In this document: piece after piece, positions 1 through 54,056 of the stretch
Layout: every line of letters begins with the position of its first letter
How positions within the stretch are numbered: the first letter of the stretch is position 1
Assembly (NCBI RefSeq): GCF_014897705.1
Contig: NZ_JABUXV010000023.1
Span: 1 to 64,000 of the forward strand
Reading direction: 5' to 3'
From: Brachybacterium sp. FME24
GTDB taxonomy: Bacteria; Actinomycetota; Actinomycetes; Actinomycetales; Dermabacteraceae
DNA: 64,000 nt
Notes under the pieces: generated by a model
Database searches by the model: none
What the model was told of the DNA's origin: nothing
The model's input: the letters and a program-made list of their open reading frames with translations, nothing else
Translations under genes and position numbers: made by a program

Positions 1-55
1 TCGCCGGTCGCCGGTCGCCGGTCGCCGGTCGCCGGTCGCCGGTCGCCGGTCGCCG
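1..55. repeat. Heptamer tandem repeat (TCGCCGG)n
   Basis: About eight consecutive copies of the 7-bp unit TCGCCGG run from the window edge to position 55. The array probably extends left beyond the window. It directly abuts the palindromic element at 55-113. Seven-bp arrays with other units occur at 29488, 50302 and 50501. Such arrays are prone to slippage, so copy number may differ between strains. Confidence 0.95.
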
Positions 56-113
56 AGAATTGTCCCCACAGGACCGATGCGGCTCTCGACATCGGTCCTG
101 CGGGGACATTTCT
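55..113 (+). repeat. Palindromic element, copy 1
   Basis: Nineteen-bp arms (61-79 and 90-108, one mismatch) enclose a 10-nt loop. The core AGGACCGATGCG-N6-CGACATCGGTCCT is shared with copy 2 at 50419-50478. So are the flanks GAG(A/T)(A/T)TTG on the left and CATTTCT on the right. The outer arm bases differ between copies but stay paired within each copy. It lies 3' of the ABC exporter operon, in antisense orientation to it. No tract of Ts follows, so it is not a typical intrinsic terminator on the + strand. Confidence 0.85.
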
Positions 114-226
114 TGCCGGCTGGGCGGCCGGGCCGGGCTGGCGAATTGGCTGGGCGGCCGGGCTGGCTGGATTGGCTCGGCGGCCGGGCCAGCCGGCCAG
201 CCGGGCGGGCTCGGCGTGACGCCGGG
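113..226. other. GC-rich intergenic region with imperfect repeats
   Basis: Short imperfect repeats of GGGCGGCCGGGC and CTGGCTGG, some inverted, fill the space between the palindromic element and the 3' end of the ABC exporter operon. It could fold strongly and help end that transcript. I see no gene. Confidence 0.5.
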
Positions 227-2281
227 TCACTCCGCCGGCGGTGCTCCTCCGTTCGTCGCCTCGACCGCGGCGATCTCGCCGGTCACGGTCGCCGAGCCCT
301 CGAGCAGGGCCTCGTCCGCGTCCGGATCCACGCCACCGGCGAACTGCGACCAGTACAGGCGGTGGTAGGCGCCCTCGGCCTCGAGGAGCTGGTCGTGATC
401 GCCCAGCTCGACGATGTCGCCGTGCTCCATCACCAGGATCACGTCCGCGTCGCGGATGGTGGACAGGCGGTGGGCGATGACGAAGCTGGTGCGGTCGGTG
501 CGCAGCGCCGCCATCGCCTCCTGCACGAGCACCTCGGTGCGGGTGTCCACCGAGGAGGTGGCCTCGTCGAGGATCAGCAGCGCGGGATCGGCGAGGAAGG
601 CGCGGGCGATGGTGATCAGCTGCCGCTCACCGGCGGAGATGTTCGCGCCCTCGTCCTCGATCACGGTGTCGTAGCCGTCCGGGAGGGTGTGCACGAAACG
701 GTCCACGAAGGTGGCGGTCGCCGCCGCGATCACCTCGTCGTCGGTCGCCTCGAGGCGCCCGTACCGGATGTTCTCCCGGATGGTGCCGCCGAACAGCACC
801 GCGTCCTGCAGCACCATTCCCACCTGGCTGCGCACCGCGCCGCGGTCCAGGGCGCGGATGTCCACGCCGTCGAGCTGGATCTCGCCGCCGTCGATCTCGT
901 AGAAGCGCATGATCAGGTTGACCAGCGTGGTCTTGCCGGCGCCGGTGGGGCCGACGATCGCGATGGTCTGCCCGGGCTCCGCGATCAGGGACAGGTCGGT
1001 GATCAGCGGTTTGTCGGGGGTGTAGGAGAAGGCGACGTGGTGGAACTCGATGCGTCCGCGGGTGGACCCGGTGAGCTCGGCGCGTTCGATGCGGCGCTCG
1101 GTCCGCTCCCCGTCGGGCCCGGTGGTCACCGCCACGAGCTCCCCGTCGGCTTCCTGTTCCTGCGCGTCCAGCAGCTCGAAGATCCGCTCTGCCGATGCCA
1201 CCCCGGAGATCAGCATGTTCGCCATGCCGGCCACCTCGCCCAGCGGCGCGTTGAACTCGCGCGAGTACTGGATGAAGGCGACGACCTGGCCGAGGCTCAG
1301 CTGCCCGCTGGCGATCCGCAGACCACCCACCACGGCGATCCCGACGTAGCCGAGATAGGTCACCCACTGCATGATCGGCATGATCATGCCGGAGTAGAAC
1401 TGGGCCTTGAAGGAGGCGTCGTACAGCTCCTCGTTGCGCTCATCGAACACCTCGCGCATCGAGTCCTGGCGGTCGAACACGGTGACCAGGTCGTGCCCGG
1501 TGAAGGACTCCTCGACATGGCCGTTCAGGCGCCCGGTGTTGCGCCACTGCGCGGTGAAGAGCTTCTGCGACTTCGCGCCGATCAAGCCGATGACCACGCC
1601 GGAGATCGGCAGCGCCACCAGGGCGATCAGCGCGAGCTGCCAGGAGAGGTAGAACATCATCGCGGTGATGCCCACGATGGTGAGCACCGCATAGACCAGC
1701 GAGGCGAAGGCCTGCTGGAGGGCCGTCTGCACATTGTCGACGTCGTTGGTGGTGCGCGAGAGCAGGTCACCGCGCTGGCGGGTGTCGAAGTAGCTCAGCG
1801 GCAGGCGGTTGACCTTGGCCTCGATCTTCTCCCGCAGCCGGTAGACGATGCGCATGACCACATCGTTCAGCAGCCGTCCCTGCAGCCAGTCGAACAGGGC
1901 GGCCACCACGTACATGCCCAGCACGATCAGCAGCAGCCTGCCCAGCGCCGGGAAGTCGACGCCGTCCCCGGTCAGGACGCCGTCGAAGATGACGTCCATC
2001 GCGTCGCCGAGGATCGACGGCGCCCACACGGTCAGCCCCGTGGAGACGATCCCGAAGGCCAGCACGATCCCGAGGCTCAGCTTGTGGTCGCTGAAGGTGC
2101 CTGCCAGGCGCATCGCGGAGGGCCAGAAGGCCTTGGCCTTGCGGGGTGCGGATTCGCCCCACTCGGTGCTCATGGAGTCCTGCATCTCGAGGATCTCGGC
2201 CTCGGTGAGCTCCACCGCGGCGGCCCCGGTGCTCGAGGGGGAGCCCTCGGCCGACTTCTTCTGCTTCTTCGCGGCGCTCAT
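227..2281 (-). CDS. ABC exporter half-transporter, catalytic-site subunit
   Basis: A 684-residue half-transporter: an acidic/lysine-rich N-terminus, a six-helix type I exporter domain (roughly residues 60-345) and a C-terminal ATPase. The ATPase has Walker A GPTGAGKTT, Walker B LLILDEATSSVD with the catalytic Glu, and switch His in FVIAHRLST. Its signature is degenerate (ISAGERQ instead of LSGGQ). It pairs with the upstream gene, whose stop overlaps this ATG in an ATGA, to form a heterodimeric multidrug- or lipid-type exporter in the plasma membrane. The start was set at the overlap; a longer ORF to 2713 runs antiparallel-frame through the partner. The substrate cannot be told from sequence. 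Confidence 0.93.
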   Translation of the reverse strand: MSAAKKQKKSAEGSPSSTGAAAVELTEAEILEMQDSMSTEWGESAPRKAKAFWPSAMRLAGTFSDHKLSLGIVLAFGIVSTGLTVWAPSILGDAMDVIFDGVLTGDGVDFPALGRLLLIVLGMYVVAALFDWLQGRLLNDVVMRIVYRLREKIEAKVNRLPLSYFDTRQRGDLLSRTTNDVDNVQTALQQAFASLVYAVLTIVGITAMMFYLSWQLALIALVALPISGVVIGLIGAKSQKLFTAQWRNTGRLNGHVEESFTGHDLVTVFDRQDSMREVFDERNEELYDASFKAQFYSGMIMPIMQWVTYLGYVGIAVVGGLRIASGQLSLGQVVAFIQYSREFNAPLGEVAGMANMLISGVASAERIFELLDAQEQEADGELVAVTTGPDGERTERRIERAELTGSTRGRIEFHHVAFSYTPDKPLITDLSLIAEPGQTIAIVGPTGAGKTTLVNLIMRFYEIDGGEIQLDGVDIRALDRGAVRSQVGMVLQDAVLFGGTIRENIRYGRLEATDDEVIAAATATFVDRFVHTLPDGYDTVIEDEGANISAGERQLITIARAFLADPALLILDEATSSVDTRTEVLVQEAMAALRTDRTSFVIAHRLSTIRDADVILVMEHGDIVELGDHDQLLEAEGAYHRLYWSQFAGGVDPDADEALLEGSATVTGEIAAVEATNGGAPPAE

Positions 2282-27484: not shown

Positions 27485-27497
27485 CCCCTGCGGACAC

Positions 27498-27532
27498 AGC
27501 CTCCCGCTCGCCGACCAGCGCGGCGGGAGGCT
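27498..27532 (+). terminator. Hairpin after the PTS operon
   Basis: Perfect 10-bp arms (27498-27507 and 27523-27532, AGCCTCCCGC and complement) enclose a 15-nt loop, 14 nt after the ulaA stop. No T-tract follows, as is common for actinobacterial terminators. Confidence 0.55.
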
Positions 27533-27820
27533 CCGTCCACCGGGACCGCCAGCACGTCGGGAGCGCCCCCGTCCTCGCGCGGGCGGCGCCCTGCACGACA
27601 CCGCGCACCCACCTACCGCGGCGTCACTGCACCACGATCGGCCGGGCGAGTATCATCCCTGCACGGTGCGCAGCCTCCCACCCCGTCGGCCGCGTACCAT
27701 CCGGCCATCGCGCGGATGCGAGAACCGCTCGCCGCGCGACGCCCTGGCCACGTGCCGAGACCGCCCTTGCCATTCCCCTCAGCCGCTGCTCCTCAGCGCA
27801 ACTTTCCGGAGGCGACACCT
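27533..27820 (+). promoter_or_regulatory. Long upstream region of metP
   Basis: No ORF is convincing in these 288 bp between the PTS terminator and the metP GTG. Two -10-like boxes, TATCAT (27651-27656) and TACCAT (27695-27700), imply a 5' leader of roughly 115-165 nt. GC-rich segments near 27720-27770 could fold. I looked for SAM-riboswitch consensus pieces and saw none I would defend. Confidence 0.4.
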
Positions 27821-49065: not shown

Positions 49066-50223
49066 ATGCAGTTCGGAATCTTCACCATCGCCGACATCAC
49101 GCCGGACCCCGTCACCGGCAGGATCCCCACCGAGAACGAGCGCCTGTCGTCCATGGTCGAGCAGGCCACGCTCGCCGAGCAGGTGGGCCTGGACGTCTTC
49201 GCCCTGGGCGAGCACCACAACCCGCCCTTCGTGACCTCCTCCCCCACCACCACGCTGGCCTACATCGGCGCGAAGACCACGGACCTCATCCTGTCCACCG
49301 CGACCACGCTGATCACCACCAACGACCCGGTGAAGATCGCCGAGGACTACGCGATGCTGCAGCACCTCACCGGCGGCCGCGTGGACCTCGTGATGGGCCG
49401 CGGCAACACCGGCCCCGTCTACCCCTGGTTCGGACAGGACATCCGCAAGGGCGTCGAGATCGCCATCGAGAACTACGACCTGCTGCGCCGGCTGTGGACC
49501 GAGGACGTCGTGGACTGGGAGGGCCAGTTCCGCACCCCGCTGCAGCAGTTCACCTCTACTCCGCGCCCGCTGGACGGCGTCGCCCCCTTCGTGTGGCACG
49601 GCTCGATCCGCTCCCCGCAGATCGCCGAGCAGGCTGCCTATTACGGCGACGGGTTCCTGCACAACAACATCTTCTGGCCGATGAGCCACACCGCGCAGAT
49701 GGTCCAGCTGTACCGCGAGCGCTTCGAGCACTATGGCCACGGCAAGGCCCACCAGGCCTACGTGGGTCTCGGCGGCCAGGCCTTCATGCGCAAGAACTCC
49801 CAGGACGCGATCACCGAGTTCCGCCCCTACTTCGACAACGCCCCGGTCTACGGCGGCGGCCCCTCGATGGAGGACTTCACCGCGGCCACGCCGCTCACCG
49901 TCGGCTCTCCGGAGCAGGTCGTCGAGCGCTACCTGACCATGGCGGACAACGTCGGCGACTACCAGCGCCAGATGTTCCTCATGGACCACGCCGGCCTTCC
50001 GCAGAAGACCGTGCTGGAGCAGATCGAGCTGCTGGGCACCGAGGTGGTCCCGGTGCTGCGCCGCGAGCTCGAGGCCCGCAAGCCGTCCGACGTCCCCGAG
50101 GCGCCCACCCACGCCGCCCGCGTGGCCGCAGCCGAGACCGAGCGCGGCTCCTTCGACGACGCCTACAAGTTCGAGACCGGCGACAACTGGACCGGCCTGC
50201 GCGCCGAGGACTCCCGCCGCTGA
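49066..50223 (+). CDS. LLM-class flavin monooxygenase, CE1758 family
   Basis: A 385-residue TIM-barrel luciferase-like protein. Family segments are FALGEHHNPPFVTSSP, GGRVDLVMGRGNTGPVYPWF and FVWHGSIRSPQIAEQAA. These enzymes use FMNH2 and O2 and are encoded next to a CE1759-type FMN reductase, here the next gene. SD GAGGAG precedes the ATG, and the AT-rich palindrome lies just upstream. Substrate unknown. Confidence 0.88.
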   Translation: MQFGIFTIADITPDPVTGRIPTENERLSSMVEQATLAEQVGLDVFALGEHHNPPFVTSSPTTTLAYIGAKTTDLILSTATTLITTNDPVKIAEDYAMLQHLTGGRVDLVMGRGNTGPVYPWFGQDIRKGVEIAIENYDLLRRLWTEDVVDWEGQFRTPLQQFTSTPRPLDGVAPFVWHGSIRSPQIAEQAAYYGDGFLHNNIFWPMSHTAQMVQLYRERFEHYGHGKAHQAYVGLGGQAFMRKNSQDAITEFRPYFDNAPVYGGGPSMEDFTAATPLTVGSPEQVVERYLTMADNVGDYQRQMFLMDHAGLPQKTVLEQIELLGTEVVPVLRRELEARKPSDVPEAPTHAARVAAAETERGSFDDAYKFETGDNWTGLRAEDSRR

Positions 50224-50301
50224 GCCGGTGGCGAGGGCCCGACAGGCGCAGCCGCTGACCCAGCCGGCCAGCGCAGCGCCGGCCGCAGCCCCGGCCCCAT
50301 C

Positions 50302-50418
50302 GCAGCCCGCAGCCCGCAGCCCGCAGCCCGCAGCCCGCAGCCCACAGCCCGCAGCCCGCAGCCCGCAGCCCGCAGCCCACAGCCCACAGCCCACAGCCCG
50401 CAGCCCGCAGCCCGCAGC
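50302..50418. repeat. Heptamer tandem repeat (GCAGCCC/ACAGCCC)n
   Basis: About 17 copies of a 7-bp unit, mostly GCAGCCC with interspersed ACAGCCC variants, lie between the flavin monooxygenase and its reductase. It ends next to the palindromic element. In reverse frame it encodes repeated CGLRAAG peptides, which are artefacts. Confidence 0.96.
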
Positions 50419-50478
50419 GAGTTTTGCTGGCCGGAGGACCGATGCGCGACCCGACATCGGTCCTCCGGCCACATTTCT
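50419..50478 (+). repeat. Palindromic element, copy 2
   Basis: Perfect 17-bp arms (50428-50444 and 50455-50471) enclose a 10-nt loop, flanked by GAGTTTTG and CATTTCT. It shares the AGGACCGATGCG/CGACATCGGTCCT core with copy 1. Its outer arm (TGGCCGG) differs from copy 1 (TGTCCCC) yet remains fully paired. It sits inside the monooxygenase-reductase gap, between two different heptamer arrays. Confidence 0.9.
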
Positions 50479-50500
50479 CGACACGACCTGCCGCCGCCCC

Positions 50501-50551
50501 CGCTCCCCGCCCCCCGCTCCCCGCTCCCCGCTCCCCGCTCCCCGCTCCCCG
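50501..50551. repeat. Heptamer tandem repeat (CGCTCCC)n
   Basis: About seven units of CGCTCCC, the second one irregular, run up to the ribosome site of the FMN reductase gene. Together with 50302-50418 and the palindrome it fills a 341-bp gap that would be expected to be short in this gene pair. Confidence 0.93.
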
Positions 50552-50564
50552 AAAGGATCGCCTC

Positions 50565-51263
50565 ATGACCGACACCGTTCGCCTCGTCGCGCTGTCCGCC
50601 GGACTGTCCACGCCCAGCTCCACGCGCATGCTCACCGACCAGCTCTCCCGCGCCGCGTCCACCGCCCTCGACCGAGATGACGTCGAGGTCGAGGTGACCA
50701 CCGTGGAGCTGCGCGAGTACGCCCACGACATCACCGACGCCCTGCTCACCCGCTTCCCGAACGAGCGCCTCTCCATGGTGGTCGAGCAGGTCCGTGCGGC
50801 CGATGCGGTCATCGCCGTCACCCCGGTGTTCAACGTCGGTCCCTCAGGGCTGTTCAAGACCTTCTTCGACGCGATCGACATCGAGGTCTGGAAGAACAAG
50901 CCGGTGCTGCTGGGGGCGACCGCGGGCACCGCGCGCCACTCCCTCGCGATCGACTACGCGATCCGCCCCATGTTCGGGTACCTGAAGGCGGAGGTCGTGC
51001 CGACCGTCGTGTTCGCGGCGTCGGCCGATTTCGGCGCCGATACCGAGGGCCAGGCCGATGAGCAGCCGCTCGCGGTACGCGTGCGACGCGCCGCGATGGA
51101 GCTCTCGCTCCTGCTGCGCTCCGGGGCCGCGACCACCCCGCAGGTCCAGGAGTCGGAATCGGCCGACGATGCTGGCGACGGGACCTCGCAGTCGCAGAAG
51201 CCGGCGCTGGACGCCGAGTTCGCCGACTTCGTCCCGATGGGCACGCTGCTGCGCCGCGACTGA
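50565..51263 (+). CDS. FMN reductase, CE1759 family
   Basis: A 232-residue NADPH-dependent FMN reductase-like flavodoxin-fold protein. It starts VRLVALSAGLSTPSSTRML and has VTPVFNVGPSGLFKTFFD and LLGATAGTARHSLAIDYAIRP. It should supply FMNH2 to the CE1758-type monooxygenase. The ATG has SD AAAGGA; a longer frame upstream reads repeat DNA and was rejected. Residues about 185-215 are a Ser/Asp-rich insertion. Confidence 0.88.
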   Translation: MTDTVRLVALSAGLSTPSSTRMLTDQLSRAASTALDRDDVEVEVTTVELREYAHDITDALLTRFPNERLSMVVEQVRAADAVIAVTPVFNVGPSGLFKTFFDAIDIEVWKNKPVLLGATAGTARHSLAIDYAIRPMFGYLKAEVVPTVVFAASADFGADTEGQADEQPLAVRVRRAAMELSLLLRSGAATTPQVQESESADDAGDGTSQSQKPALDAEFADFVPMGTLLRRD

Positions 51264-51273
51264 CCCTCGCCGG

Positions 51274-51332
51274 CGGCGCCGGCAACGACGTCGGCGCCGG
51301 CAGCGACCTCGGCGCCGGTCTTCACCGGCGCC
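51274..51332. repeat. 18-bp direct repeats ending in a hairpin
   Basis: CGGCGCCGG recurs at 51274, 51292 and 51310 with an 18-bp period. The last copy forms an 8-bp perfect hairpin (51311-51318 with 51325-51332, 6-nt loop). It lies just after the FMN reductase stop and may terminate that transcript. Confidence 0.6.
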
Positions 51333-51428
51333 CTCGCCCGCGCCCGCAACCGTCGGCATCCAGGTGCGGCCGGGCCCTCGCCTCCGTAGCCTGCCGGGAC
51401 ATTCCCAGCAGCTCAGAGAAGAGGGCAG

Positions 51429-52385
51429 ATGCTCGGCATCCTGTCGGCGATCGTTCCGATCTTCCTGATCGTGGCCCTCGGCTACGGCGTCACCCGCATC
51501 GGGATCCTCCGCCGCGCCGACATGCGGGTGCTGTCGACCTTCGTCGTGAAGGTGGCCCTGCCGGCGCTCGTGTTCGTGAACGTGGTGGGCCGCTCTCCGG
51601 GGGAGATCCTCAACCCCACCTACCTGCTCACCTACGCGATCGCCGCCCTCGTCATGGTGGGGCTCGCGCGCCTCTGGAATCGCACACGACGGGTCGGGCC
51701 GGTGCGTGCCGCGACACTCTCGCTCGCGGTCAGCGGCACCAACAACGGCTTCGTCGGCTTCCCGATCTTCCTGCTCCTGATCCCCGAGGTGGCCGGGCTG
51801 GCGGTCGGGATGGACATGATGGTCGACAACATCCTGATCATCCCCCTGGCGATCGCGCTGTTCGAGGCCGCGGCGGGACGCGAGACGAGCTGGGGCCCTC
51901 GCCTGGTCGGCACGGTGCGCGGCGTGGTCACCCACCCCATGGTCATCGCCATCGCCGCCGCGCTCGCCCTCACCGCCCTCGGGGTCGGGATCCCCGGGAT
52001 CGTCGACACGGCGCTGGAGCTGGTCGCCGGCTCCTCCTCGGCCGTCGCCCTCTTCTCCATCGGCGGCATGCTGGTGGGGATGTCCCTGCACGGCCAGCGT
52101 GCGGACCTGGCCGCGGCGGTCGTCGCCAAGCTGCTGGTCATGCCGACGGTCGCGGTGGCAGTCGTGCTCGTGCTCCCGCTGCTGGGGCTGCCGTCGCTGG
52201 ACCCCGCGCTGCGCGTCGCGGCGATCCTCACCTGCGCCCTGCCGTCGATGTCGATGGCGGCGGCGCTCGGGGAGCAGTACGGCGAGGGCGAGTTCGGCGC
52301 CTCGACGATGATGCTCTCCACCGTCCTGTCCTTCGTCACCCTCTCCGGCTGGATGCTCGCGCTGAGCGCGGTCGGCTGGCTGTAG
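51429..52385 (+). CDS. AEC-family permease
   Basis: A 318-residue auxin-efflux-carrier (AEC/BART) family protein with about ten membrane segments. Conserved elements are KVALPALVF near residue 45 and SGTNNGFVGFPIF near 105. Bacterial members transport dicarboxylates such as malate or malonate; the substrate here is not evident. SD GAGG precedes the ATG. Confidence 0.85.
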   Translation: MLGILSAIVPIFLIVALGYGVTRIGILRRADMRVLSTFVVKVALPALVFVNVVGRSPGEILNPTYLLTYAIAALVMVGLARLWNRTRRVGPVRAATLSLAVSGTNNGFVGFPIFLLLIPEVAGLAVGMDMMVDNILIIPLAIALFEAAAGRETSWGPRLVGTVRGVVTHPMVIAIAAALALTALGVGIPGIVDTALELVAGSSSAVALFSIGGMLVGMSLHGQRADLAAAVVAKLLVMPTVAVAVVLVLPLLGLPSLDPALRVAAILTCALPSMSMAAALGEQYGEGEFGASTMMLSTVLSFVTLSGWMLALSAVGWL

Positions 52386-52484
52386 CGCACGGCTGGCGGG
52401 AAGAGTTCGGCCACGGGGCAGCGCACCAACGCTCCACCCCCGTGGCCGCGCAGCCCCAGCGTCCCCGAGCGTCAGGAGAAGACC

Positions 52485-52559
52485 GTGAATTACGCACTGA
52501 TCATGCGTGAGGCGTTCTGGCGCGAGGAGCCGGCGGCACGCAACGCCGGGGCCGCCTGA
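52485..52559 (+). CDS. Orphan leader-like peptide (24 aa)
   Basis: A GTG-started 24-residue ORF beginning MNYALIMREAFWRE, with a strong SD (AGGAGAAGACC) and one Tyr and one Trp codon. A GC-rich hairpin follows within 8 nt of the stop. The layout is that of an attenuation leader, but the next gene is convergent, so it controls no visible operon. It may be a remnant, a true small protein or part of a small RNA. Confidence 0.5.
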   Translation: MNYALIMREAFWREEPAARNAGAA

Positions 52560-52566
52560 CTCCTCC

Positions 52567-52589
52567 GGCCCGGTCATCGCGGCCGGGCC
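52567..52589 (+). terminator. Hairpin after the 24-aa ORF
   Basis: Seven-bp perfect arms GGCCCGG/CCGGGCC (52567-52573 and 52583-52589) with a 9-nt loop, lacking a T-tract. It also lies 9 bp from the convergent sulfatase stop and could serve both directions. Confidence 0.5.
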
Positions 52590-52598
52590 TCGACGTCA

Positions 52599-54056
52599 TC
52601 ACCGCCCGCTCCCGGGAATGATTCGGGGCGGCGTCGACTGGCCGGCGCCGTCGGTCCCGGTGCTCCAGCCACTGAGGGCTGCAACCTCATGGTCGGCGAA
52701 CCAGGAGGTCATGGCGTCGGTAAGATCGCGGCGGCGAGCGGCGCTGGCAGGGTCACCCGAGCGGTCGCTGTCTTCGAGAGGATCTGCCTCGAGGTCGTAG
52801 AGCTCCACCGGACCCTCGCGGCGCAGGACCAGCTTCCAGCCATCGGTGCGGATCATGCGGGCGGCGCCGTATTCGTCGTGGATGACGATCCGGTCGTCGG
52901 CCTCCGTGGGCAGGTCGGCGCCCAGCAGTCGAGGTGCGAATGAGCGTCCCGCCCGCAACGGATCCGGGGCGGGCATGGCACCGGTGAGCTCGGCGAGGGT
53001 CTCGTAGAGGCTGGTGGCCGACGTGGGCCGCTGATCAACGTGACCGGCAGGGATGACCCCTGGCCAGCGGGCGATGAACGGGACCGTGATGGATGGCTCC
53101 CAGAAGTTCAGCGGCCAAGTCGCGTTGCCCTTGCCCCAGACCCCGTGGTGACCGCAGGAGAATCCGTTGTCCGAGGTGAACAGAACAACGGTGCGGGCGA
53201 GCTCGCCGGTCTGCTCGAGATGGGCAAGAAGCTGGGCCACACTGCGATCCACGCCGCTGACGGCTGCGCCGTAGCCGGCAAGTGCCTCATGCCGGTTCGC
53301 GAGGGGTCCGGCGAAGTTCTCGCGCACGAACCAGGGATGGTCGGGCAGTTGCGGGATCGAAGGGAAGTCGGTGTCACGGTAGAGGTCGCGCAGCTCGCCA
53401 GGATGCTCCTGGCCGAGCCAGGGATCGTGTGGGGCCGTCCAGTTGACCTGCAGGAAGAAGGGACGCTCATCTCCGCCAGAGGGTCCGCGCCCGAGGAAGT
53501 CGAGGCCCCGCTCCGTGAGGGCGTCGGTGAGGTAGCGGGGCTCGGACCCGGACTGCGCGGGAACTGCGGGCACCCCGGTCGCGGGGTCCTGTTCCCAGAT
53601 CGGGGCGCCGTAGTAGGAGCCACCGCCGAGCTGATGGGCGTACCAGTAGTCGAAGCCGGGAGCGGGAGCGTCGGAGGAGCCGACATGCCACTTGCCGACC
53701 ATCCCGCAGCGGTAGCCGTCACGGGAGAGCATTGCGGCGATCGTGTCGGCCCCGGGCAGATCGGCGAGGAAGTCCGGATCCAGCGGTCGGCGCGGCGACG
53801 CAGTGCGGGCAAGGGCCTCGGGCAGGATCCAGTCGTGGATCCCGTGGGCCGACGGCATGCGGCCGGTCATCATGCTCGCCCGCGCCGGGGAGCAAACCGG
53901 TGAAGCGCAGTAGAACTGCGGGAGCGTGGTGCCTTCGCGTTGGAGCCGGTCCAGGGTCGGGGTGTGGAGCTCCGGGGTGCGGGTGCGGAGCGCCCAGGAC
54001 CCCTGGTCGTCGGTGACCAGCAACAGGACGTTCGGCCGAGCGGTCTCGGCGGGCAT
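52599..54056 (-). CDS. Cys-type sulfatase
   Basis: A 485-residue alkaline-phosphatase-fold sulfatase. N-terminal metal site LLLVTDDQG, formylglycine motif CSPARASMMTGR (CxPxR, Cys matured by an FGE encoded elsewhere), GKWHVG, and the second metal site FTSDNGFSCGHHG. No signal peptide, so it acts in the cytoplasm on an imported sulfate ester. ATG chosen over an adjacent GTG for SD spacing. It is divergent from the isomerase/dehydrogenase/permease operon, which suggests a sulfated or acidic sugar substrate. Confidence 0.88.
   Translation of the reverse strand: MPAETARPNVLLLVTDDQGSWALRTRTPELHTPTLDRLQREGTTLPQFYCASPVCSPARASMMTGRMPSAHGIHDWILPEALARTASPRRPLDPDFLADLPGADTIAAMLSRDGYRCGMVGKWHVGSSDAPAPGFDYWYAHQLGGGSYYGAPIWEQDPATGVPAVPAQSGSEPRYLTDALTERGLDFLGRGPSGGDERPFFLQVNWTAPHDPWLGQEHPGELRDLYRDTDFPSIPQLPDHPWFVRENFAGPLANRHEALAGYGAAVSGVDRSVAQLLAHLEQTGELARTVVLFTSDNGFSCGHHGVWGKGNATWPLNFWEPSITVPFIARWPGVIPAGHVDQRPTSATSLYETLAELTGAMPAPDPLRAGRSFAPRLLGADLPTEADDRIVIHDEYGAARMIRTDGWKLVLRREGPVELYDLEADPLEDSDRSGDPASAARRRDLTDAMTSWFADHEVAALSGWSTGTDGAGQSTPPRIIPGSGR

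Follow-up and report, generated by a model that had tools for sequence, protein, structure and literature searches.

A REP-like family of extragenic palindromes in Brachybacterium and its pairing with a Vsr/DUF559-like nuclease gene

Both palindromic elements in the window, by which we mean the whole 64,000-nucleotide stretch of Brachybacterium sp. FME24 DNA analyzed here, belong as solo copies to a family of REP-like palindromes in Brachybacterium that is dispersed, extragenic and species-specific. The arms of the family tend to remain complementary while their sequence changes. In four Brachybacterium species the gene of a Vsr/DUF559-like nuclease lies between two family copies, and related nuclease genes elsewhere are enclosed by copies of different repeats, mostly palindromes. 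The best explanation, which we hold with moderate confidence, is that the REP-like family and the nuclease would work together in the manner of a REPtron, with an unrelated enzyme.

Two solo palindromes in the window

The first-pass annotation of this DNA had described two elements 50 kb apart that share a core and a 10-nt loop, that carry outer arms differing in sequence yet complementary, and that both abut 7-bp tandem arrays, and each of these descriptions is confirmed (Table 1). The exact core, AGGACCGATGCG-N6-CGACATCGGTCCT, is found at 70-99 and 50435-50464, has no match in 100 shuffles of the window, and encloses a loop of 10 nt in both copies. In copy 1 the arms at 56-79 and 90-113 flank a loop at 80-89 and contain two mismatches (68.101 A.C and 60.109 T.T). 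In copy 2 the arms at 50428-50444 and 50455-50471 flank a loop at 50445-50454 and form a 100% inverted repeat (I3) with no mismatches; pairing stops at the arm ends, and the AT-rich flanks lie outside the stem. The outer arms are unlike but paired, reading GTCCCCAC../..GCGGGGAC in copy 1 versus TGGCCGG../..CCGGCCA in copy 2. Copy 1 is located 3' of the ABC transporter gene, with the contig start just to its left, and copy 2 is flanked by two co-directional genes, those for the monooxygenase and the FMN reductase.

Table 1. Positions of the two palindromes and of neighbouring features in the window
Feature	Position	Strand	Evidence and remarks
Solo palindrome copy 1	51..118 (model span)	.	R1 71.2 bits + / 69.5 bits -; exact core
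Solo palindrome copy 2	50415..50483 (model span)	.	R1 61.7 bits - / 60.6 bits +; exact core
7-bp tandem array (TCGCCGG)x7.9	1..55	.	TRF; abuts copy 1; associated, outside the element
7-bp tandem array (CGCAGCC)x16.9	50301..50418	.	TRF; abuts copy 2; associated
7-bp tandem array (CCGCTCC)x8.4	50494..50551	.	TRF; downstream of copy 2; associated
ABC transporter gene (membrane + ATPase)	227..2281	-	Gene call; Pfam ABC_membrane, ABC_tran
Luciferase-like monooxygenase gene, upstream of copy 2	49066..50223	+	Pfam Bac_luciferase 4.9e-68
NADPH-dependent FMN reductase gene, downstream of copy 2	50565..51263	+	Pfam FMN_red 2e-28

The proximity of tandem arrays extends to the rest of the genome. Of 28 sites in the source genome (G000), 14 have a short array no more than 100 bp away, versus 10 of 95 control gaps (Fisher 2e-5; stretches of differing length). 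The link to arrays that the first-pass annotation drew therefore holds statistically, although array periods differ and a period of 7 is not required. A further inverted repeat in the window, at 27486-27544, is imperfect, with 22-bp arms (82%), and gives no match to the model of the palindrome family.

Size and spread of the family

By strict core alone, there are at least 10 sites in G000, and the strict core is present in 9 of 58 genomes, all Brachybacterium. A covariance model (R1), built from 30 sites (alignment A2) that were picked by exact core, so that core conservation there is by construction, finds at least 29 sites in G000 at E<=1. The first-pass annotation had raised the prospect that only two copies exist, or that the arms of further copies would not co-vary; the sites in the source genome and the covariation over 60 sites described below show otherwise. 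R1 has matches in 21 of 38 Brachybacterium genomes, G000 included. A broader model (R2), built from 60 sites (alignment A4) with the core relaxed, the sites themselves having been found with R1, is positive in 23 of the 38 and in none of nine genomes of other genera within the family Dermabacteraceae, and finds at least 35 sites in G024 at E<=0.05. All of these site counts are lower bounds, the best 109-150 candidates having been scored per genome, and the best 12 in the order-wide search.

Across the order, R2 matches at least 26 of 396 genomes, 14 of them Brachybacterium and 12 other, the latter with one to four matches each. Four matches outside Brachybacterium read GAGGGCCGATG ... CATCGGCCCTC with different outer arms, so the core could predate the genus. 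Some of the 12 outside-genus matches are unconvincing, L286 being a repeat array.

Copies within one genome share a conserved inner core, GGACCGATG/CATCGGTCC, and have outer arms that vary from copy to copy and are mostly still complementary. Species have their own versions of the palindrome, such as GTGCGCGCTCACGGTCGATG in G021, GTTGTGCGCTGTGCACCGGTG in G002 and ..CGATCGATG in G019. In G002 there is also a unit composed of a palindrome, approximately 125-150 bp and a second palindrome, present in three copies, one of them inverted; the copies are similar within the unit and show no clear similarity beyond it, the boundaries being the palindromes. The many extragenic copies, the species versions and this double-palindrome unit bear out the earlier proposal of a REP- or MITE-like interspersed palindrome.

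Arms that change and stay paired

Over 60 sites, 89.5% of stem cells are paired versus 71.6 +/- 0.8 in shuffles, and 22 of 25 stem pairs have changed on both sides. Cells changed on both sides number 258 of 1443 versus 100 +/- 7 in shuffles, with none of 500 shuffles reaching 258, and shifting the partner register abolishes the covariation signal. At orthologous sites the outer arms show 128 two-sided Watson-Crick changes versus 101 one-sided and 59 other two-sided changes, based on 34 pairwise comparisons in 14 sets with both neighbours matched, the comparisons being mutually non-independent.

Sequence conservation is concentrated in the inner arms. In five genomes loop identity is 32-44% versus 84-95% for the inner nine arm bases, and in one Tsukamurella family of four copies the arms are 98% and the loop 48% identical. 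These values bear on the idea that the palindromes are neutral, that template switching during replication keeps them perfect while their arms drift freely, and that the core is similar through common descent. Template switching has been reported to generate stems and to preserve them via multi-base compensatory changes (PMC8794818), the tandem arrays enriched beside the copies could be a replication scar, and the mismatches are strand-symmetric, as detailed in the following section. Template switching alone could keep the pairing, but it explains neither the constrained core nor the association with a nuclease. The within-genome contrast between loops (32-48%) and inner arms (84-98%) indicates constraint on inner-arm sequence, even if it partly reflects the choice of sites via core models, and we regard this account as improbable.

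The geometry of the core could also be read as that of double-stranded sites for a regulator or architectural protein, with half-sites GGACCGATG about one helical turn apart and TG/CA one turn further. Half-site spacing is 10 in 72 of 115 sites and 8-12 in the remainder (one site of this set, G002 C1:3250691, shares 30 bases with the end of a called gene), and TG/CA is almost invariant outside the variable arms in the 60-site alignment. However, complementarity is also retained in arm segments that are not conserved, something that double-stranded recognition does not require, making this reading highly improbable.

Genomic position and strand symmetry

None of the 62 mapped sites in G000 and G024 overlaps a called gene, and most sites are 3' of genes (these context counts omit C33:17706 and G024 C1:259980). 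Of the 60 sites that have a called neighbour on each side, 36 are in tandem, 19 in convergent and 5 in divergent gaps, where gap length predicts 30.5, 11.3 and 18.2 (chi-square p = 4e-4), and in tandem gaps of all genomes 44 of 56 sites are closer to the upstream stop.

Extragenic, 3'-proximal placement with enrichment in convergent gaps, together with the retention of a palindrome downstream of xylA in most species read, is what would be anticipated of bidirectional terminators or 3' mRNA-stabilising hairpins that are selected as RNA and to which the nuclease is incidental. We nevertheless think this quite unlikely. An RNA stem is expected to tolerate G.U and not A.C, yet the sense-strand mismatches in 57 tandem sites comprise 45 G.T and 43 A.C. 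The outer A/T block on the 3' side of these 57 sites is A-rich as often as T-rich (A-majority in 23, T-majority in 17, equal in 12, and no CA in 5), and so shows no preference for the U-tract that follows the stem of intrinsic terminators. In addition, the conserved core and loop length are unlike ordinary terminators, and the left copy at the lysC locus described below lies in a gap between divergent genes in three species. Given that G.T and A.C are equally frequent and that there is no U-tract preference, a palindrome at the DNA level is a better fit than a hairpin or terminator acting as RNA, with pairing maintained at the DNA level or symmetrically. The same symmetry, with an A/T block that has no T preference, led us to reject a strand-specific RNA function. 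The structured RNA that the first-pass annotation had entertained is likewise disfavoured by these mismatch counts, and there are no Rfam matches in the window.

Two spacers were compared across species. The spacer that separates the monooxygenase gene from the FMN reductase gene, and holds copy 2 in the window, carries a family palindrome in 3 of 30 species (G000, G024 and G012) and other hairpins scoring >=12 in another 3 (G007, G031 and G010); in the remaining 24 it is 0-94 bp long without a hairpin. The prevalence of the short, hairpin-free spacer suggests gain of the element at this place. Downstream of xylA, where xylB is the next gene in 21 of 25 genomes, a hairpin scoring >=12 is present in 18 of 25. 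Palindromes were recognized by model or by eye in five more (G000, G007, G022, G025 and G058), and none was found in G004 and G011. Eight of these xylA-downstream palindromes belong to the window family and the others are several unrelated sequences. By eye, the xylA spacers L191-L218 hold at least six unrelated palindrome sequences, some of them with CATA or TAT in the loop.

A nuclease gene between two family copies

At the lysC locus of G000, G024 and G019, a gene for a putative nuclease of 342-387 aa is located between two copies of the family; in G000 this gene is on contig C2 at 160185-161213. In G002 the lysC site is occupied by a double-palindrome unit without the nuclease gene, and a homologue of the nuclease is found elsewhere in the genome, likewise between two family copies. 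Identity of the nuclease among the three lysC species is 53-59%, and that of the neighbour genes 84-96%; this Vsr/DUF559-like protein is fast-evolving.

Its C-terminal domain has matches to REase_MTES_1575 (best 6.7e-8) and to DUF559, most of which fall short of the curated cut-offs. Seven of nine proteins match each of DUF559 and MTES_1575 at E<=0.1, and one of four scanned proteins passes the DUF559 cut-off (24.8 versus 20.6 bits). The G026 and G021 proteins have no Pfam match at E<=0.01 and were assigned via a home-made profile (3.5e-30 and 1.7e-27, respectively), and for the Tsukamurella genes in L330-L332 and L338 the records themselves give a DUF559 annotation. Residues E, D and H are invariant in the alignment, which we take to fit the Vsr-like PD-(D/E)XK site of a putative nuclease. 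A sequence search of the PDB returned no convincing relative. Two nuclease queries had no relative among viral contigs, and among phages one query had none and another gave one weak unannotated match. One nuclease protein has a weak AbiEi match in a defence library (1.3e-4), and a defence role is thus possible.

Repeats enclosing related nuclease genes

The four family-type nucleases were noticed through their adjacency to family copies and are not an unbiased sample. We also read the flanks of related genes, including all relatives in a plasmid collection at the limits used (Arthrobacter, Tsukamurella and Nonomuraea). In a 200-kb stretch, chosen for xylA, of G026, a genome without R2 matches, a nuclease homologue lies between two copies of an unrelated palindrome with 28-31-bp arms. 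All three Arthrobacter loci are enclosed by palindromes of their own, different at each locus and with one imperfect copy per pair, and their flank alignments exceed all 200 shuffles. The five Tsukamurella loci, four obtained via the plasmid collection and one met blind in a control stretch, all have mutually similar flanks. The four from the collection comprise two palindrome pairs, one pair of half-palindromes (Tsukamurella 3) and one direct repeat of 113 bp (Tsukamurella 4), and the arms of Tsukamurella 2 and 5 are short. The one Nonomuraea homologue is unflanked. The homologue in G021, a family-rich genome, is not enclosed and has one palindrome of another family, 526 bp off on a single side; no family-type nuclease was found in the stretches of G021 that were read.

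A flank score of >=45 was reached by 12 of 15 nuclease loci versus 0 of 352 control genes (266 + 45 + 41, a sum that leaves out the two nuclease genes met in control stretches). Of 267 genes in Brachybacterium that have a gap of >=80 bp on either side, the one at >=45 is the G026 nuclease, whether flanks are gap-limited or fixed at 300 bp. In two 50-kb control stretches, the one of 86 genes at >=45 is a previously unnoticed Tsukamurella DUF559 gene with shorter-armed palindromes on both sides. Scored in these stretches were 45 of 49 features from Tsukamurella and 41 of 43 from Arthrobacter. Four Tsukamurella genes were omitted: one scores 28, one has a flank that is too short and two are cut by the stretch end, as are the two omitted Arthrobacter genes. 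The G000 nuclease scores 25 at 300 bp despite its two enclosing family copies, and 50 with 450-bp flanks, at which the shuffle maximum is 40. Against the 266 controls, Fisher p is 2e-17 for the 14 nuclease loci known before the blind Tsukamurella locus, 1e-16 for 10 of 12 loci with the lysC trio counted once, and 6e-14 for 8 of 10 loci without lysC and G002.

The enclosing palindromes of other genera also have further copies. The StoSoilB13-1 type occurs at 37 places and the StoSoilB13-2 type at 10 places in two Arthrobacter StoSoilB13 records, and the Tsukamurella 1 palindrome at 20 places in eight T. tyrosinosolvens records; strands may count apart in all three, so that sites would be about half for StoSoilB13-1 and Tsukamurella 1. 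At E<=1e-3, a search of 72,556 plasmid records showed none of the three in a different organism. Three Tsukamurella solo copies that were read, out of the eight records, lie in convergent-gene gaps, as do many in Brachybacterium. Searching named genomes with the exact core returned four stretches, two from B. massiliense, one from a MAG contig and one from Herbiconiux solani, the sole other named genus with the exact core; in the latter the palindrome is just 5' of a gene for a nuclease homologue (E 3e-10), with no second palindrome in the 125 bp beyond the gene.

Other genes can also be found between two palindromes, namely an OsmC-like gene, a gene for a 309-aa protein, a DUF4037 gene and an mgtE-like gene (OsmC and mgtE by eye). 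The mgtE-like gene, in G016 block 50894-52700 (L237), lies between copies of another family, GATCGAGA..GGCGCCTC, and enclosure is thus not restricted to the nuclease.

It is conceivable that the palindromes are pre-existing targets, such as 3' hairpins, into which a homing-type nuclease inserts while duplicating its target, and that solo copies are not spread by the nuclease. Solo copies do greatly outnumber nuclease units, with at least 29 sites versus one nuclease locus in the G000 stretches read, and the differing families of the xylA-downstream hairpins make that slot seem older than each family. On the other hand, the sequence families differ with the local nuclease, and the monooxygenase/FMN reductase spacer suggests gain of a palindrome without a nuclease. 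We consider pre-existing targets unlikely.

Relation to known repeat systems

REPs with Y1 transposases are the best-known source of bacterial interspersed palindromes, and a TnpA-REP partner had been suggested in the first-pass annotation. This suggestion did not hold, as Y1/RAYT transposases (PF01797) were found in none of 38 Brachybacterium genomes, with 5 of 14 control genomes positive, and the associated gene is instead that of the Vsr/DUF559-like nuclease. According to the part of the paper available, RAYTs are enclosed by two REPs with which they co-evolve, and are fast-evolving and species-specific (PMC2817692). The Brachybacterium family resembles REPtrons (REP plus RAYT/TnpA-REP) in its many species-specific extragenic palindromes, in the fast-evolving enzyme gene between two copies, and in that enzyme and palindrome differ together, as the same portion describes (PMC2817692). 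It differs in its partner, with no Y1 (HUH) transposase found, in arms of up to ~25 bp, and in copies numbering tens rather than hundreds, REPs usually having >100 copies in the available text (PMC2817692). Furthermore, the definition of REPs, as given in the part available, includes a GTAG-type tetranucleotide 5' of the palindrome (PMC8266576), and no such conserved columns are present in the 60-site alignment. With an unrelated enzyme and the GTAG motif missing, the family would work like a REPtron without being one.

Similar comparisons apply to other repeats. The palindrome-linker-palindrome unit of G002 is reminiscent of REPINs and BIMEs but has a linker of ~125-150 bp with its own conserved sequence, and no RAYT. 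Like MITEs, the elements are short and gene-free, and the double-ended unit of G002 sits beside lysC where relatives carry the nuclease unit; unlike MITEs, no lone arm is found in G021, where 21 of 21 half-arm matches fall within palindrome sites, and no target-site duplication was seen, the empty sites being too diverged for alignment by eye. Because G021 half-arms occur only inside palindromes, insertion-sequence ends and MITE terminal inverted repeats were rejected. Also rejected was a 'transposon' with inverted palindromes on G033 C4, a perfect head-to-head repeat of >=3.6 kb that is likely an assembly artefact; just one of its two palindromes is included in alignments A2 and A4. At L025 (G033:C4:20000-27500) the head-to-head repeat, probably an artefact, includes xylA-xylB.

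The nuclease itself is linked to Vsr/DUF559 endonucleases by what appears to be a related nuclease domain (Pfam DUF559 and REase_MTES_1575). Vsr differs in its association with the repair of T.G mismatches and with a cytosine methylase, and a term search of the paper gave no mention of palindromes or hairpins (PMC12907096).

A possible mechanism and its meaning

We infer from sequence that the nuclease may cut, spread or maintain the palindromes, or correct their arms. The putative nuclease would recognise its own palindrome, in hairpin or cruciform form, through core sequence and pairing, and would nick it. Repair or replication of the nicked DNA would then spread solo palindromes and nuclease-palindrome units and keep the arms paired, and the palindromes would settle mainly behind genes, where they would be least harmful. 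Vsr-like action on T.G mismatches in the extruded hairpin would explain arms that change yet stay paired without selection on RNA.

The pairing of palindrome and nuclease suggests an undescribed kind of selfish or self-maintaining repeat system. No such pairing is described in the portions available of the literature on Brachybacterium repeats, DUF559, REP/RAYT, terminators, template switching and Vsr. Titles and abstract openings on Brachybacterium palindromic repeats contain no description of such repeats, those on DUF559 with mobile palindromes yielded just a CRISPR/T6SS paper, and no paper was found on DUF559 endonucleases in Actinobacteria. If an enzyme unrelated to the Y1 transposases does stand in this arrangement, palindrome-plus-nuclease would be a recurring design and an uncharacterised actinobacterial DUF559 gene family would gain a function; the question is testable with one protein and short oligonucleotides.

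A broader proposal, which we rate as slightly less likely than not, is that singleton Vsr/DUF559-type nuclease genes are autonomous units of palindrome families and form a separate class of selfish DNA that is widespread in actinobacteria. Each nuclease would recognise its own hairpin, perhaps including T.G mismatches inside it, as Vsr does; after nicking, repair would copy the palindrome to new extragenic places, and would convert one arm from the other, such that sequence changes and pairing persists. If this were true, many 'orphan' DUF559 genes would be mobile-element genes and not repair or defence genes.

Additional observations

At four of nine nuclease loci (L326, L327, L328 and L227), an exact copy of TGTGGATAA, a DnaA-box-like or extended -10-like word, is found 15-47 bp ahead of the nuclease start and always in the same orientation. 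The sites are unevenly placed along two of the records. All 27 sites found on G024 C1 fall within the first 1.32 of 3.14 Mb, and on G002 C1, whose record starts at a gene that is dnaA-like by eye, 18 of 24 thinned sites are in the half around coordinate 1 (mean-cosine p = 0.004).
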